A DNA stretch of 36,484 nt, taken from positions 1 to 36,484 of the forward strand of contig NZ_WBZC01000039.1 of NCBI RefSeq assembly GCF_009017275.1, written 5' to 3'. Below the pieces are notes generated by a model. It had not been told where the DNA came from and ran no database searches. It saw only the letters and a program-made list of their open reading frames with translations. Source of the stretch: Alkaliphilus pronyensis (GTDB taxonomy: Bacteria > Bacillota > Clostridia > Peptostreptococcales > Natronincolaceae). The translations under genes were made by a program, and so were the position numbers. Positions 4,076 to 22,403 of the stretch are shown one piece after another; within the stretch, counting starts at the first letter, position 1, and every line of letters begins with the position of its first letter.

Positions 4076-4261
4076 CTAGTTGTTGTTATCATCAATTAAT
4101 TGCCTTTCACCCATTTCAACTAACTTTCTTACTATATAGCCAGTGTGATTAGAAGCTAGAGACTTTGGGTCATTTACCCCAAACTCCTTTGCTACCTCTA
4201 GCTTATAATCTTCCAAGGCTTTACGAGCATTTGGAACTACAAGCTTTCTTTTAGACAACAT
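4076..4261 (-). CDS. Divergent alpha/beta-type small acid-soluble spore protein
   Basis: The 61-residue product aligns by eye with alpha/beta SASPs, which coat and protect DNA in the dormant spore and are degraded by the GPR protease at germination. The N-terminal LVVPNARKALEDYKLEVAKEFGV (residues 7-29) matches the SASP start, including the EVAKEFGV segment where GPR cuts in relatives (EIASEFGV in Bacillus SspA). The second half is shortened and altered: GYIVRKLVEMGERQL replaces the usual glycine-rich GGxxxKRL helix, and the central NG/TSR region is absent. AAAGGAG just upstream of the ATG supports the start. A possible sigma-G promoter lies at 4291-4319. The family call is good; DNA binding by this divergent form is inferred. 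Confidence 0.75.
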   Translation of the reverse strand: MLSKRKLVVPNARKALEDYKLEVAKEFGVNDPKSLASNHTGYIVRKLVEMGERQLIDDNNN

Positions 4262-4965: not shown

Positions 4966-5457
4966 TTGAAGGATAAGGAGCTAAGGATTATACAGCAGGC
5001 AATGCTTATTGAAGTGGAGGGCTTTGAATTTTACCAAATGGCAGCAAAGCAATGCGGAAATAAAGAGTCTGAAAAAGCCTTTATGGAACTAGCTAATGAA
5101 GAGCTAATGCACGGTGAATACTTAAAGGGATTATTTGAAAAGATTCAAAATGGCGATGATGATAAAATAAAATTAGCTTTTTTACCAAAGCCACCAGAAT
5201 CAAAAGTATTTGATTGGAAAAATGTAAATATGAAGTCCACCAGCTTAGCGGTATCGGTTTTTGGTATTGCAGTAGATATGGAAAAGGCATCTATTGAGTT
5301 TTATAAGAATGCTAGAAATAACACATCCAGTGAAGAAGCTCAAAAACTATATGATATGCTTATAGAATGGGAGCAGGTGCATTTAGAACAGTTTACAAAG
5401 CGATACAATGAGTTTAAAGAGGATTGGTGGACCCATCAAGGATTTGCTCCCTTTTAA
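4966..5457 (+). CDS. Rubrerythrin-like ferritin-family diiron protein
   Basis: The 163-residue protein is a four-helix bundle of the rubrerythrin/ferritin-like superfamily (COG1633 type). Two sets of diiron ligands can be seen: EVEGFEFY (16-23) with EELMH (45-49), and the DMEKASIEFY helix with EWEQVH (Glu136, His139), giving the paired E...ExxH pattern. It lacks the C-terminal rubredoxin domain with its Cys4 iron site, so it is not a full rubrerythrin. Such proteins are linked to peroxide or oxygen defence in anaerobes, but the reaction here is inferred. The start is TTG at 4966, supported by AAGGAGAGG at 4951-4959. It converges with sodC and shares a terminator with it. Confidence 0.85.
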   Translation: MKDKELRIIQQAMLIEVEGFEFYQMAAKQCGNKESEKAFMELANEELMHGEYLKGLFEKIQNGDDDKIKLAFLPKPPESKVFDWKNVNMKSTSLAVSVFGIAVDMEKASIEFYKNARNNTSSEEAQKLYDMLIEWEQVHLEQFTKRYNEFKEDWWTHQGFAPF

Positions 5458-5477: not shown

Positions 5478-5520
5478 ATGCAAAGGTCCTTATGCTACAA
5501 TAAGGACCTTTGCATGTTTT
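5478..5520. terminator. Terminator between the rubrerythrin-like gene and sodC
   Basis: A perfect 15-bp stem (5478-5492 with 5501-5515) with an 8-nt loop is followed on the plus strand by G and four T. It sits exactly between two convergent genes, overlapping the last bases of sodC, and probably serves both. Confidence 0.75.
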
Positions 5521-6118
5521 ACTTTATAACTCCACAGGCTAAACGCCTACCTGCATTCCCTGTAGGCTGACTTCTATAATCATCAGGATTTTCATGAATT
5601 ATAACTGATTTACCAATTACATTCCAGGGCTTAAAGCGATTAGTAAAAAAGCACATTCTAGCAACTCCATTATTAGAAAATATAACTGGAAAATCCCCAG
5701 CATGATTACCATGGGGCTGATTATCTGGGTTCCAGTGTCCTCCAGCTGCTTGAAAAGGCTCTGTTGGGTCCCCTATCTGGCATGTGCCATTTTCATGAAG
5801 GTGAAATCCATGGGGACCAATGGGATTACCATTATCACCTGCCTGATATGGAGGCAATCCATTTATATTAACACATACCTCTGTACCATTAGGAACATCC
5901 ACAAAGTAAACTATTCCATTAATACTAGGGGCAAGGGGACCTCCCTTTATCTTTGCATAGGTTATGGTTTTTCCTTGAGGATAGAACCAGTAGCTACCAC
6001 CATTGTTTATTTTACTCATCCAGTTATACCAATTCCACCATACTATAGTCTGTAGTCCAGGAGATGTATATAAGTAAGCTTTATTATTATTATTATCATT
6101 ATTAGTATTTGCTATCAT
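5519..6118 (-). CDS. sodC: Cu/Zn superoxide dismutase
   Basis: The 199-residue protein dismutates superoxide. All metal ligands of Cu/Zn SOD are present: His106 and His108 (FHLHE), bridging His128 (GGHWNP), His136 and His139 with Asp142 (QPHGNHAGD), and His175 (SVIIHENPDDY). The active-site arginine (Arg192 in GRRLACG) and the disulfide cysteines (Cys113, Cys195) are kept. Bacillus subtilis YojM, by contrast, lacks copper ligands. There is no signal peptide or lipobox. Instead an Asn-rich stretch (4-12) and an aromatic segment (27-45, rich in Trp and Tyr) precede the SOD domain. AAAGGAGGAG supports the ATG. A sigma-K-like promoter upstream suggests spore-coat or mother-cell use; that location is an inference. 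Confidence 0.93.
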   Translation of the reverse strand: MIANTNNDNNNNKAYLYTSPGLQTIVWWNWYNWMSKINNGGSYWFYPQGKTITYAKIKGGPLAPSINGIVYFVDVPNGTEVCVNINGLPPYQAGDNGNPIGPHGFHLHENGTCQIGDPTEPFQAAGGHWNPDNQPHGNHAGDFPVIFSNNGVARMCFFTNRFKPWNVIGKSVIIHENPDDYRSQPTGNAGRRLACGVIK

Positions 6119-6172
6119 TCTTCACTCCTCCTTTAAGGTTATTTAAATATGTTAATGCTATTAGCTTCACTT

Positions 6173-6201
6173 TATATTATGATGAGGTAAATATTAATGT
6201 T
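6173..6201 (-). promoter_or_regulatory. Possible sigma-K promoter of sodC
   Basis: Read on the minus strand, AAC (6199-6201), 17 bp, then CATAATATA (6173-6181) fits the late mother-cell sigma-K pattern MAC-N16/17-CATAnnnTA. It lies about 55 bp before the sodC start. The motif is AT-rich and could occur by chance. Confidence 0.4.
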
Positions 6202-6222: not shown

Positions 6223-6240
6223 CTATGACAAATGTCATAG
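6223..6240. repeat. 18-bp palindrome, candidate operator of the ABC/two-component locus
   Basis: CTATGACA-AA-TGTCATAG is a perfect 8-bp inverted repeat about 80 bp upstream of the ABC transporter start. Downstream lies TATAGT (6290-6295) with no good -35 element, as expected for an activator-dependent promoter. It is a natural candidate site for the NarL-type regulator encoded at 10721-11347. This link is inferred. Confidence 0.5.
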
Positions 6241-6320: not shown

Positions 6321-7253
6321 ATGATATTAAAAATAAACAACCTAGTAAAGCGCTATAAGGATGTGTTGGCAGTGGATAATGCCTCCATATCAATTGCAGA
6401 AGGGGAAATATATGGTTTACTAGGTCCTAATGGTGCTGGCAAAACAACACTTATAAGTACAATATTAGGCTTAACAAAATATGATGAAGGTAGTATAGAG
6501 ATATTTGGTAAGGATTTAAAAAAGAATGAATATGAAATAAAAAAAGAAATTGGAATTGTACCACAAGACTTAGCCATATATTTAGATCTTACCGCCTATG
6601 AAAATGTTGAGTATTTTGGAAGATTATATGGATTAAGAGGTAATCTGTTAAAGGAGAGAATTGAAGAGGCCTTAAACTTCACAGGATTATGGGATAGAAG
6701 AAAGGATGTACCTAAAAAGTTTTCAGGGGGTATGAAAAGACGACTCAACATTGCCTGTGCAGTTATGCATCATCCCAAGCTAATAATAATGGATGAACCA
6801 ACTGTGGGAATTGATCCTCAATCACGAAACCTGATATTAGACTCAGTAGTAAAACTAAACAAAATGGGTTCAACCATAATATATACATCCCACTACATGG
6901 AGGAAGTTGAAGCAATATGTAGTAATATAACTATTATTGATCATGGTAGAGTTATAGCAAAAGGTACTAAAGAAGAGCTGAAGTCTATGATTTCCTTTGA
7001 AGAAAGGCTAGCGATTGATATATCTTCAGTAAATTTCAATTTAGTAGATGGATTAAAGAAGGTTATTGGTGTGAAGGAATGTAGCTTAAATGGTAATAAA
7101 CTACTAATAATATCCGAAAAGAATGCCAACAACCTAAGTAGAATAATTGATGTAATTCTAAAGATGGATGTAGAAATAAAGGGTTTAAACATTGAAAAGC
7201 CAACTTTAGAGGGAGTATTTTTAACATTAACTGGAAGGTCCTTAAGGGATTAG
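6321..7253 (+). CDS. ABC transporter ATP-binding protein (Lnr/drug-export type)
   Basis: The 310-residue ATPase powers the two membrane proteins encoded next. It carries Walker A GPNGAGKTT (35-43), the Q-loop VPQDL (80-84), the ABC signature SGGMK (135-139) and Walker B LIIMDEP (154-160), followed by an H-loop in YTSHYMEE. The region after residue 220 is the extra C-terminal domain common in exporters of the DrrA/CcmA type, ending LEGVFLTLTGRSLRD. AAAGGAGG precedes the ATG. The order ATPase-permease-permease with an adjoining kinase and NarL-type regulator resembles Bacillus lnrLMN with lnrJK, which exports the polyene linearmycin; the substrate here is unknown. Confidence 0.92.
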   Translation: MILKINNLVKRYKDVLAVDNASISIAEGEIYGLLGPNGAGKTTLISTILGLTKYDEGSIEIFGKDLKKNEYEIKKEIGIVPQDLAIYLDLTAYENVEYFGRLYGLRGNLLKERIEEALNFTGLWDRRKDVPKKFSGGMKRRLNIACAVMHHPKLIIMDEPTVGIDPQSRNLILDSVVKLNKMGSTIIYTSHYMEEVEAICSNITIIDHGRVIAKGTKEELKSMISFEERLAIDISSVNFNLVDGLKKVIGVKECSLNGNKLLIISEKNANNLSRIIDVILKMDVEIKGLNIEKPTLEGVFLTLTGRSLRD

Positions 7254-9645: not shown

Positions 9646-10740
9646 ATGAAAATAGTATTCAAGTTAAGCTTTTTAGCATTTGTAATTATACAAATTATTT
9701 TAAGCAACTCTGTTAATATTGAAGAAGTTGTTTTTATGTTGACCTTACTTTCCTTAAGCATATTTAGGGAAAAATATATAAGCAATATTTGGATTGTTGG
9801 TATAGAGGCTATTATTATTTATATAGCAGGTGGATACAATAGCTTATTTTTACTATTATATGCAATTACTATTTATGACTTAATTGAAATGAGCTATTAT
9901 TTGTTAATAATACCTACTGTTATAATCGGATACATCCATTTATCAATAAACAGCTTTTTATATTTTCTTTTTTTTATCTTTCTAAGCGGACTCTTTTCAT
10001 ATGTTAATCATGGATTATTAGAAAAGGAGAAAATCTTAAAGCAGTCCTTTGATAAGGAAAGAAAGGCTAGATATGAGCTTGAACAAGTACGGGTTAAGCT
10101 ACTGGAGTCCAGTAAAGAAATAGCCCATTTAACTGAAATAAAAGAAAGGAATAGAATCGCAAGGGAAATACATGATAATATTGGACATAGTATAGCAGGT
10201 ATATTACTGCAATTACAGGCTGCTGAAAAATTATTTACTAGAAATAATGAAAAAGCTTTAGAGCTGTTAAAGAAGTCAGTTGAGGGTTTAGCAGAAACGC
10301 TTGTTCATTTAAGAGAAACAGTTCATAATATTAAACCTAAGGATAATCTGGGTATCGAATATATTGAAAGTGTTATAGATCACTTTCAATATTGCCCAAT
10401 TGACTTTAAACACTGTGGTGATTTTAATAGATTATCACAAAACCACATGGAAATAATTGTATACAACATTAAAGAAGCCCTTACAAACATTGCTAAACAT
10501 TCAAAGGCCAGTAAAGTTAATATCACCATAGAGACAAACGAAATGTATACAAGGCTATTGATTAAGGATAATGGAATAGGATGTAATAATATTAAAGAAA
10601 ATTTAGGACTTGAGGGTATGAAGCATAGAATTAGAAATGTTGGTGGTACCATATCCATCAACGGACAAGATGGTTTTTTAATTGTATGTGTAATTCCTAT
10701 GGATAAGGGAGGTTTTATAGGTGAAGGTGCTAATAGTTGA
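9646..10740 (+). CDS. Membrane sensor histidine kinase, NarL-partner type (HisKA_3)
   Basis: The 364-residue kinase has about five or six tightly packed membrane helices in residues 5-118 with almost no external loop, so it probably senses a signal within or at the membrane. A charged linker (120-165, coiled-coil-like) leads to the H-box EIHDNIGHS with phospho-acceptor His176, the N-box NIKEALTNIAKHS (274-286) and the G-box DNGIG (308-312), followed by GLEGMKHRI. This is the LiaS/DesK/LnrJ class. GGTGAGGGG precedes the ATG. The gene overlaps the response regulator by 20 bp, so they are co-translated. The intramembrane sensing fits cell-envelope antibiotics; the signal is unknown. Confidence 0.9.
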   Translation: MKIVFKLSFLAFVIIQIILSNSVNIEEVVFMLTLLSLSIFREKYISNIWIVGIEAIIIYIAGGYNSLFLLLYAITIYDLIEMSYYLLIIPTVIIGYIHLSINSFLYFLFFIFLSGLFSYVNHGLLEKEKILKQSFDKERKARYELEQVRVKLLESSKEIAHLTEIKERNRIAREIHDNIGHSIAGILLQLQAAEKLFTRNNEKALELLKKSVEGLAETLVHLRETVHNIKPKDNLGIEYIESVIDHFQYCPIDFKHCGDFNRLSQNHMEIIVYNIKEALTNIAKHSKASKVNITIETNEMYTRLLIKDNGIGCNNIKENLGLEGMKHRIRNVGGTISINGQDGFLIVCVIPMDKGGFIGEGANS

Positions 10741-11347
10741 TGATGATGCTTTAATTAGGGACAGCTTAAAAATAATATTAGAGCTGGAGGACTCCTTTGA
10801 GGTGGTAGGGGTAGCAGCAAACGGACAAGAGGCATTAAATATATGCAGCCAAAAAAATGTGGAGCTTGTACTGATGGATATAAGAATGCCTGTTTTAGAT
10901 GGTGTTCAAGCTACAAAGGAGATTAAAAGTCGCTTTAACAGCATAAAAGTTGTAATCTTAACCACCTTTATGGATGATGAATATATTAAAGAAGCACTTA
11001 AAAATGGTGCTGAAGGATATATTTTAAAGAGCCAATCCTCCGACAGTATAATTGAAAGCTTAAAAATGGTAATGATGGGCAATGTAGTTTTTGAAAAGGA
11101 TGTAGTAGATACACTAAAGACAATTATAAATAAGGAAAAGCAAAAGCAGGAGCTGAACTTTGATTTAACAAATCGTGAAATGGAAATAATGAAGCTTGTT
11201 GGTGAGGGACTTTCAAATAAGGAGATAGCAGCAAAGCTATTCTTAAGTGAAGGTACAGCTAGAAACTACGTTACTAATCTACTGGAAAAGCTTGATTTAA
11301 GAGATAGGACACAGCTTGCCATTTTCTATTTAAAAAATATTGAATAA
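10721..11347 (+). CDS. NarL/LuxR-family response regulator
   Basis: The 208-residue regulator has a receiver domain (1-120) with acidic pocket DDD (7-9), phospho-acceptor Asp53 in LMDIRMP and the conserved Lys in YILKS, and a C-terminal LuxR-type helix-turn-helix (about 145-205: TNREMEIMKLVGEGLSNKEI, then AAKLFLSEGTARNYVTNLL). It starts with GTG at 10721 inside the kinase gene, with AAGGGAGG at 10706-10713. It probably activates the ABC exporter operon 3.5 kb upstream; the palindrome at 6223-6240 is the candidate site. Confidence 0.93.
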   Translation: MKVLIVDDDALIRDSLKIILELEDSFEVVGVAANGQEALNICSQKNVELVLMDIRMPVLDGVQATKEIKSRFNSIKVVILTTFMDDEYIKEALKNGAEGYILKSQSSDSIIESLKMVMMGNVVFEKDVVDTLKTIINKEKQKQELNFDLTNREMEIMKLVGEGLSNKEIAAKLFLSEGTARNYVTNLLEKLDLRDRTQLAIFYLKNIE

Positions 11348-21326: not shown

Positions 21327-22403
21327 TTGAAGGAAGATGAAAAAAGGCAAAAACAGCTACTTGACACAATTAAGCTTCTATCCCCTGGTACACCTTTAAG
21401 GGAGGGTTTAGAAAACATTTTGAAGGGTAAAATGGGAGCCTTAATAGTAATAGGAGATAACGAAGCTGTAATGAAACTGGTGGATGGTGGATTCACCATA
21501 AACGTAGACTTTTCTCCAGCCTATCTGTACGAATTAGCCAAAATGGACGGTGCAATCATACTAAGCAGTGACACCAAAAAAATTCATTATGCTAATACCC
21601 AGCTAATACCTGATCCTTCAATTATTACTACTGAAACAGGTATAAGACACAGGATAGCTGAAAGAGTTGCAAAAGAAACAGGTGAGGTTGTAATATCAAT
21701 TTCTCAAAGAAGAAACATAATTACCCTTTATCAAGGCTACTATAAATATATTGTACAGGACACTGGACGGGTATTAACTAAGGCGAATCAAGCAATTCAA
21801 ACCCTAGAAAAATATAAAGTGGTATTAGACTTAGGTATGAATCATTTAAGTGCTTTAGAATATGAAGATTTAGTTACATTATATGATGTGGCTACAGTGC
21901 TACAGCGAACTGAAATGGTAATGAGAATAACAGCAGAGATAGAGAAATTTATTTGGGAGCTTGGTAATGAAGGGCGATTGGTGAGTATGCAGCTAGAGGA
22001 GCTAATTGCAAACGTAAAGGAGGACGGTGAATATGTAGCCCATGATTATAATGCAAATAAAGATACTGAGGTAGAGGGAATTATTAAGCAAATTAAAGGG
22101 CTTACATCGGAAGAACTATTAGACCTAACTAACATATCTAAAATATTGGGATATGATAATAATGTTAGTGCATTAGATATCTCTATTTCACCAAAGGGCT
22201 ATAGATTATTAAATAAGATACCAAGACTACCAAATACAGTTATAGATAATTTAGTAAATGAGTTTAAGAGCTTTCAAAAAGTCTTGAAGGCATCTATTGA
22301 AAAGCTAGATGATGTAGAGGGTATAGGTGAAGTTAGAGCAAGGGCAATAAAAGAGGGCTTAAGAAGATTACAAGAGCAGGTTATGATAGGCAGGCATATA
22401 TAG
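21327..22403 (+). CDS. disA: DisA, DNA-integrity-scanning diadenylate cyclase
   Basis: The 358-residue protein makes cyclic di-AMP from two ATP and stops when it meets branched DNA. The N-terminal DAC domain shows the catalytic DGA (74-76) and RHR (107-109) motifs. A helical linker (about 150-290) leads to a C-terminal helix-hairpin-helix DNA-binding part (DDVEGIGEVRARAIKEGL, about 325-345). The start is TTG at 21327 after GGTGAGGTG at 21311-21319. It sits downstream of radA as in Bacillus, linking c-di-AMP signalling with repair and sporulation checkpoints. Confidence 0.96.
   Translation: MKEDEKRQKQLLDTIKLLSPGTPLREGLENILKGKMGALIVIGDNEAVMKLVDGGFTINVDFSPAYLYELAKMDGAIILSSDTKKIHYANTQLIPDPSIITTETGIRHRIAERVAKETGEVVISISQRRNIITLYQGYYKYIVQDTGRVLTKANQAIQTLEKYKVVLDLGMNHLSALEYEDLVTLYDVATVLQRTEMVMRITAEIEKFIWELGNEGRLVSMQLEELIANVKEDGEYVAHDYNANKDTEVEGIIKQIKGLTSEELLDLTNISKILGYDNNVSALDISISPKGYRLLNKIPRLPNTVIDNLVNEFKSFQKVLKASIEKLDDVEGIGEVRARAIKEGLRRLQEQVMIGRHI

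Follow-up and report, generated by a model that had tools for sequence, protein, structure and literature searches.

Bacterial Cu/Zn superoxide dismutases (SODs) are regarded as exported enzymes, and strict anaerobes are regarded as relying on superoxide reductase and Fe/Mn SOD. What, then, is a Cu/Zn SOD gene without an evident signal peptide doing in the anaerobe Alkaliphilus pronyensis? The gene, here called sodC, starts with ATG, encodes 199 residues and occupies positions 5519–6118 (stop codon included) on the minus strand of contig NZ_WBZC01000039.1, of which a stretch of 36,484 nucleotides was analyzed (positions 1 to 36,484; the window). A first-pass annotation of this DNA had read sodC as an intact enzyme behind a sigma-K-like promoter, perhaps destined for the spore coat. 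Comparison of the gene with its relatives, all of it at the level of sequence, indicates that sodC is probably a late mother-cell gene dependent on sigma-K, and that the enzyme is probably placed in the spore envelope.

The window protein matched the Sod_Cu family (PF00080) with an E value of 4.8e-33 and a score of 114.8 bits, compared to a curated cut-off of 28.9. Sod_Cu was the sole Pfam family in the protein, and no second match to it was found across the 3.06-Mb genome, which also has a single match to Fe/Mn SOD and a single one to desulfoferrodoxin. The catalytic domain (residues 67–198; 5525–5920, minus strand) contains the metal ligands H106, H108, H128, H136, H139, D142 and H175, the disulfide cysteines C113 and C195, and the active-site R192. 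We take the usual assignment of these residues to copper or zinc, with one histidine bridging the two metals, to apply. When 93 distinct proteins, including that of the window, were aligned, each of the seven ligands was kept in 93/93, each cysteine in 91/93 and the arginine in 89/93, with lysine in the remaining four. (This set was subject to the exclusions given below for the promoter count, and additionally left out L020, L021, L023 and identical proteins.) An AlphaFold model, calculated from an alignment of 58 sequences (57 of the 78 usable loci plus the window), had ten-residue mean confidence values of 83–98 from residue 51 on, except for a mean of 61 at residues 181–190. The first 50 residues were modeled with low confidence (means of 37–53), with a possible helix at residues 22–38.

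The best matches in the PDB, by solved fold as well as by sequence, were Cu/Zn SODs, namely the Bacteroidetes CuZnSOD 7b4o/7b4p, which shares the domain, the metal ligands, the disulfide cysteines and the arginine. Two Firmicute proteins also invite comparison. Bacillus subtilis YojM is also a Sod_Cu protein (phmmer E value of 3e-13 to 1xtm), but its copper site is disrupted and it is described as inactive (PMC10432803), whereas the window protein keeps every ligand, as the first-pass annotation had pointed out. Paenibacillus lautus PaSOD, according to the same source, is an active Cu/Zn SOD that likewise has additional N-terminal sequence. It differs in its predicted export, in having neither of the two cysteines and in that its N-terminal part forms a folded dimer domain (PMC10432803). 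Among relatives with a name, Alkaliphilus peptidifermentans DSM 18978 is the nearest (75%; L029).

The N-terminal tail (residues 1–54; 5957–6118, minus strand) is Asn-rich and then aromatic, reading MIANTNNDNNNN...IVWWNWYNW, with QTIVWWNWYNW as its aromatic part. It is hydrophilic and has no hydrophobic export segment, and a crude hydrophobicity scan (not SignalP, and with start codons chosen by script) flagged 0 of the 93 tails. By this crude scan, the window protein falls outside the exported bacterial SodC enzymes, which have an N-terminal signal or lipoprotein peptide. The first-pass annotation was thus borne out in its description of an intact active site, an Asn-rich and aromatic N-terminus and the lack of an export signal, and we infer that the product is an active, non-exported Cu/Zn SOD. 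Other PF00080 systems differ from this family, which has no evident export signal, Tyr-enriched or LysM-containing tails and a sporulation-type promoter, and which occurs mostly in spore formers.

The promoter-like sequence noted in the first pass, AAC-N17-CATAATATA, is present at 6173–6201 on the minus strand, with the –35 element at 6199–6201 and the –10 element at 6173–6181, beginning 63 nucleotides before the ATG. The evidence that it is a promoter comes from the relatives. AC-N16/17-CATANNNTA was found within 130 nucleotides of the start codon in 41/95 distinct upstream regions including the window (40/94 without it), whereas 200 dinucleotide shuffles averaged 0.64 such regions and never exceeded 3, and other open reading frames (ORFs) of the same loci had it in 4/498. 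A relaxed motif, ending in TA or TG, was present in 61/95 sodC upstream regions and 9/498 other ORFs. When each 85%-identity cluster was represented by a single gene, the counts were 35/83 for the strict and 54/83 for the relaxed motif. (Left out of the count were L001/L002, which are copies of the window gene, the fragments L024–L028, L087 and L099, whose starts were wrong, genes cut off by the end of the stretch, proteins shorter than 130 residues and identical upstream regions.) A second set of 29 loci, reduced to 20 by dropping three without a start, five copies of the first set and one at an edge, gave 8/20 strict and 12/20 relaxed matches, or 7/16 and 11/16 with near-copies removed; in this set, L125 and L129 are at least 85% identical to first-set genes, and L139 and L149, which share their N-terminal part, were both counted. 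The motif was present at 11 of the 12 loci with Bacillales names, not counting Haloplasma (L088). Conservation of this kind is not due to chance.

The spacing and the –35 element indicate which sigma factor is involved. Among 71 CATANNNTR boxes located 20–100 nucleotides upstream, collected irrespective of any –35 element, AC occurred at a spacing of 17 in 50, and at any other spacing in at most seven. An A or C preceded AC in 78% of cases and a G in 8%, a pattern consistent with sigma-K rather than sigma-A. In Clostridioides difficile, the –35 element is described as AC for sigma-K and ATA for sigma-E, while the –10 elements are very similar (PMC3789822). The boxes thus carry the sigma-K element and not that of sigma-E, which makes it quite improbable that sodC is an early mother-cell gene under sigma-E or a forespore gene, even though a precedent exists in C. 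difficile SodA, a spore-surface protein reported to be under sigma-G control (PMC3789822). The conserved promoter, of the form mAC-N16/17-CATAnnnTA, is that expected of a member of the sigma-K regulon, and is strong evidence from sequence that sodC has a sigma-K-type promoter.

The distribution of sodC points in the same direction. SpoIVA, the sole sporulation marker used, and Sod_Cu were scored in a class-wide set of 391 genomes: 114 had Sod_Cu, 280 had SpoIVA, 108 had both and 105 had neither. SpoIVA was present in 108 of the 114 genomes with Sod_Cu and in 172 of the 277 without it (odds ratio of 11, ignoring kinship). Among 60 closer relatives, including the window's own genome, sodC was found whole or in part in 23 of the 32 with SpoIVA and in 0 of the 28 without. 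All 23 sodC-bearing near relatives thus have SpoIVA, while nine have SpoIVA and no sodC. Apart from six exceptions in the class-wide set, the gene is confined to presumptive spore formers (108/114 and 23/23), and looks like an optional part of sporulation rather than a general stress gene.

There are a number of observations that weigh against this interpretation. In the window's own genome, MAC-N17-CATANNATA occurs 30 times, compared to 33 for a reversed-pattern control, and the same bases at the sodC locus can be read as a sigma-70 promoter, TTAACA-N16-CATAAT, with 10 of 12 matches. No motif, even relaxed, was found within 130 nucleotides of the script-chosen starts in 34/95 regions of the first set and 8/20 of the second, or at the Haloplasma locus; the counts ignore shared ancestry, and many loci come from metagenome-assembled genomes. 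Six genomes (G065, G161, G187, G222, G267 and G374) have Sod_Cu without SpoIVA (three of these are 61–85% complete), and the 114 Sod_Cu genomes include remnants in G080, G088, G109 and G162. Conversely, Sod_Cu is absent from 172 of the 280 SpoIVA-positive genomes, and is therefore not essential for sporulation. Finally, the copper store Csp3 (PF03860) had no match here.

Because of the reversed-pattern control and the sigma-70 reading, AAC-N17-CATAATATA by itself is weak evidence, and we rejected the own-genome motif as sufficient. Both points would favor an ordinary cytosolic antioxidant of growing cells, made from a sigma-A promoter, with the sigma-K-like string arising by chance. However, sigma-70-like sites were about as frequent as in shuffles (5 vs. 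4.2), the relatives keep the mAC element and the 17-nucleotide gap with few G residues before AC, and a housekeeping antioxidant is difficult to reconcile with the complete absence of sodC from the SpoIVA-less near relatives. We therefore consider a sigma-A gene improbable, and continue with sigma-K as the preferred assignment.

The genes behind the other matches in the genome are relevant as well. Seventeen of the 30 were inside open frames of at least 150 codons and 13 were intergenic; seven of the latter are followed by an ORF that has a plausible ribosome-binding site. These seven ORFs encode sodC, a multicopper oxidase, YunB, a SpoIID-amidase, a hexapeptide transferase, a GGDEF protein and a 61-residue protein without a match. 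YunB and SpoIID are sporulation families, and the multicopper oxidase presumably resembles the coat laccase CotA. Taken with the promoter conservation, the co-occurrence with SpoIVA and the LysM fusions described below, these sites strongly support the late mother-cell transcription that the first-pass annotation had suggested, as far as can be predicted from sequence. The SpoIID protein itself is a fusion with an amidase_3 (CwlD-like) domain, encoded at L154:4-1431 on the minus strand (G000:C1, from the window's own genome) behind its sigma-K-like site. The multicopper oxidase ORF (L159:397-1860, on G000:C11 of the same genome) lies behind CAC-N17-CATATGATA, and is a candidate for a second copper enzyme of this anaerobe's spore envelope.

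The following sequence of events would account for a non-exported enzyme on the spore. After engulfment, sigma-K RNA polymerase would transcribe sodC from 6173–6201, and the enzyme would fold and take up copper and zinc in the mother-cell cytoplasm. Coat proteins are assembled from the cytoplasm of the mother cell, and the enzyme would thus need no export signal. The variable N-terminal tail may then dock the enzyme onto the developing spore from the outside, and lysis of the mother cell would expose it on the spore surface. There, dismutation of superoxide could protect the envelope when the spore of the anaerobe meets air; alternatively, it could make peroxide for oxidative cross-linking of coat proteins. 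Supply of the copper by Csp3 was considered and rejected for want of a PF03860 match.

The tails are the most variable part of the protein. The length of the tail preceding the domain differs among the relatives, with a median of 21 residues, and for all relatives taken together tyrosine makes up 12.1% of the tails compared to 3.2% of the domain. The WxNW stretch of the window protein recurred within the main locus set only in L003/L029 (one gene), L004 and L005. In two relatives, Tepidanaerobacter sp. GT38 (L055:4857-5504) and a Firmicutes metagenome-assembled genome (L067:4791-5456), the tail of the Cu/Zn SOD is a LysM domain scoring above the Pfam cut-off. Neither fusion has an evident signal peptide, and the strict promoter motif was present in neither. 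SafA, a morphogenetic coat protein, has LysM, and the LysM-type tails gave a weak match to SafA/ExsA, under its cut-off. The variety of tails suggests that they are interchangeable targeting parts.

Variable, Tyr-enriched tails are equally what one might expect if sodC were a sigma-K-controlled mother-cell gene whose product is mainly a structural or cross-linked component of the coat, with SOD activity incidental. Coat enzymes such as SodA and CotJC, according to PMC3533761, may not work through their nominal activity. On the other hand, a purely structural role does not require the retention of all metal ligands and, with few exceptions, of the cysteine pair seen in the alignment. We regard a mainly structural role as unlikely, if less easily dismissed than a sigma-A promoter, and favor a working enzyme in the spore envelope.

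Spore SODs as such are not new, and neither are the fold or the enzyme. SodA belongs to a different family and uses another metal. SodA-type SODs of B. subtilis, C. difficile and the B. cereus group are reported to be spore-associated, with proposed roles in cross-linking or protection (PMC3533761, PMC3789822, PMC4750369); for B. subtilis SodA, the cross-linking proposal is that of Henriques (1998), as cited in PMC3533761. The sigma-G control reported for C. difficile SodA (PMC3789822) is a further difference from the sigma-K-type promoter of sodC. Another comparison is with the CotA laccase of B. subtilis, a member of another family. It is described as a copper enzyme whose synthesis depends on sigma-K and which ends up in the coat (PMC9484137). 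Csp3 is the proposed copper donor to CotA (PMC9484137), and it is this donor that had no counterpart here. According to the same source, B. subtilis spores have no known copper-requiring enzymes other than CotA and the two cytochrome oxidases (PMC9484137).

In two relatives, G007 and G019, sodC is split. In G019, the 5' part (2292001–2292327) and the 3' part (2248812–2249012) are 43 kb apart; in G007, the 5' part (22048–22374) and the 3' part (130798–130995) are separated by 108 kb. The break is at the identical position in both genes, in the loop that holds the zinc ligands H136 and H139, and both halves are open and in frame. A short core that codes for Pro-His-Gly is present both where the 5' part ends and where the 3' part starts; the two copies are identical in G019 and differ by one base in G007. 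Since the core is shared and in frame, excision would restore the reading frame (Pro-His-Gly-Asn-His). In both genomes, the 5' part is abutted by a gene for a 531-residue large serine recombinase with Resolvase, Recombinase and zinc-ribbon domains, and AAC-N17-CATAYTATG is found 107–113 nucleotides before the start of the 5' half. The elements also contain ParA-like and conjugation-like genes, as named by reading the ORFs, and resemble integrative and conjugative elements (ICEs).

The split genes thus have the features of skin-type elements: interruption of a gene, a joint marked by a serine recombinase, and a frame-restoring core, with the single mismatch in G007. Such elements are described in sigK, spsM, spoVFB, gerE and yabG (PMC10747680, PMC5595907). 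As in skin, SP-beta/spsM, vfbin, gin and yin, a sporulation gene would be interrupted and then rebuilt by recombination at a short core repeat (PMC5595907, PMC10747680), and in skin and yin, too, the recombinase gene lies behind the 5' part (PMC10747680). Unlike these, the sodC elements are ICE-like, occur in two relatives and not in the window, and their excision is a prediction. The predicted addition of sodC to the interrupted sporulation genes supports a late mother-cell role.

The history of the two elements is a separate matter. Synonymous divergence (dS) between G007 and G019 was 0.7–2.2 for element genes (1.13 for the recombinase), but 0.13–0.15 for flanking host genes and 0.16 for sodC, whose ratio of nonsynonymous to synonymous divergence (dN/dS) was 0.13. 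The much higher divergence of the element genes implies that related elements inserted twice, independently, at the same site, and we therefore rejected the possibility that a split sodC had been kept by selection since a common insertion. Given separate acquisitions, the halves may owe their low dN/dS to the time before insertion, the cores in G007 differ, and its 108-kb span contains an extra island. It may be, then, that sodC was merely inactivated by an ICE in G007 and G019, and that the split says nothing about excision timed to sporulation. The intact halves, the adjoining recombinase, the frame-restoring core and the promoter-like sequence before both 5' halves speak against simple inactivation, and we give it an even chance.

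A recombinase specific to sodC was also considered and rejected: the pair at sodC is 85% identical, but homologues of 44–47% identity were found elsewhere, in G000, G001 (of the same genus as the window genome) and G008, off the contig that carries sodC. Likewise, a suspected third split gene in G080 is more like a deletion, since the C-terminal remnant (L150:6522-6773) is directly behind a CATAATATA box. The ORFs beside this remnant are, we presume, GerQ-like and CwlJ-like. In G019, an island of host-like genes (G019:C1:2206531-2248812; L109–L111) lies outside the ICE-like element and is bordered by another 3' end of sodC, in a decayed state (L028); the same island in G007 (G007:C4:65700-103000; L116–L118) sits inside the sodC interruption. 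This makes sodC look like a hot spot for the accumulation of elements.

Neither a sigma-K-dependent or mother-cell Cu/Zn SOD nor an element intervening in sodC was found among the matches listed, which comprised open-access titles and the starts of abstracts. As far as these show, a signal-less lineage of apparently intact Cu/Zn SODs with a sigma-K-type promoter in Clostridia and Bacilli, the LysM fusions and the predicted interruption by recombinase elements are new. It is possible, though doubtful, that they represent an unrecognized class of spore-envelope Cu/Zn SODs in Clostridia and Bacilli, made under sigma-K together with the multicopper oxidases of the coat and serving as a copper-dependent module for the oxidative maturation, or the protection, of the coat in strict anaerobes, and that in some species sodC is rebuilt by excision of an ICE-like element from the mother-cell chromosome. 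If so, anaerobes would load copper into an enzyme within the dying mother cell, letting the spore meet air, and sodC would be a new target among the interrupted sporulation genes. The sodC reading also offers a testable source of the peroxide, or of the protection, proposed for coat assembly.

Around the gene, a ribosome-binding site, AGGAGG, is at 6127–6132 (minus strand). Downstream, a 16-bp hairpin at 5478–5515, not assigned to either strand, is terminator-like on the plus strand, and possibly shared between sodC and its convergent neighbor, a gene for a rubrerythrin-family protein (4966–5457, plus strand; PF02915; TTG start as called). A gene for an alpha/beta-type small acid-soluble spore protein (PF00269) is located nearby at 4076–4261 on the minus strand. 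Surroundings of this kind are not widely conserved: the largest cluster among 218 immediate neighbors of sodC in the relatives had five members, which led us to reject a conserved operon or neighbor and to treat sodC as a single-gene unit. No sodC relative was encoded in the eight stretches matched by a viral_contigs scan (plasmids were not searched). About 22 nucleotides upstream of the sodC –35 element, in the divergent region, is a near-perfect inverted repeat, CTATGACAAATGTCATAG, at 6223–6240. It is followed by an ABC transporter operon (from position 6321), which continues into a histidine kinase/response regulator pair (9646–11347), and is possibly the operator of that operon.
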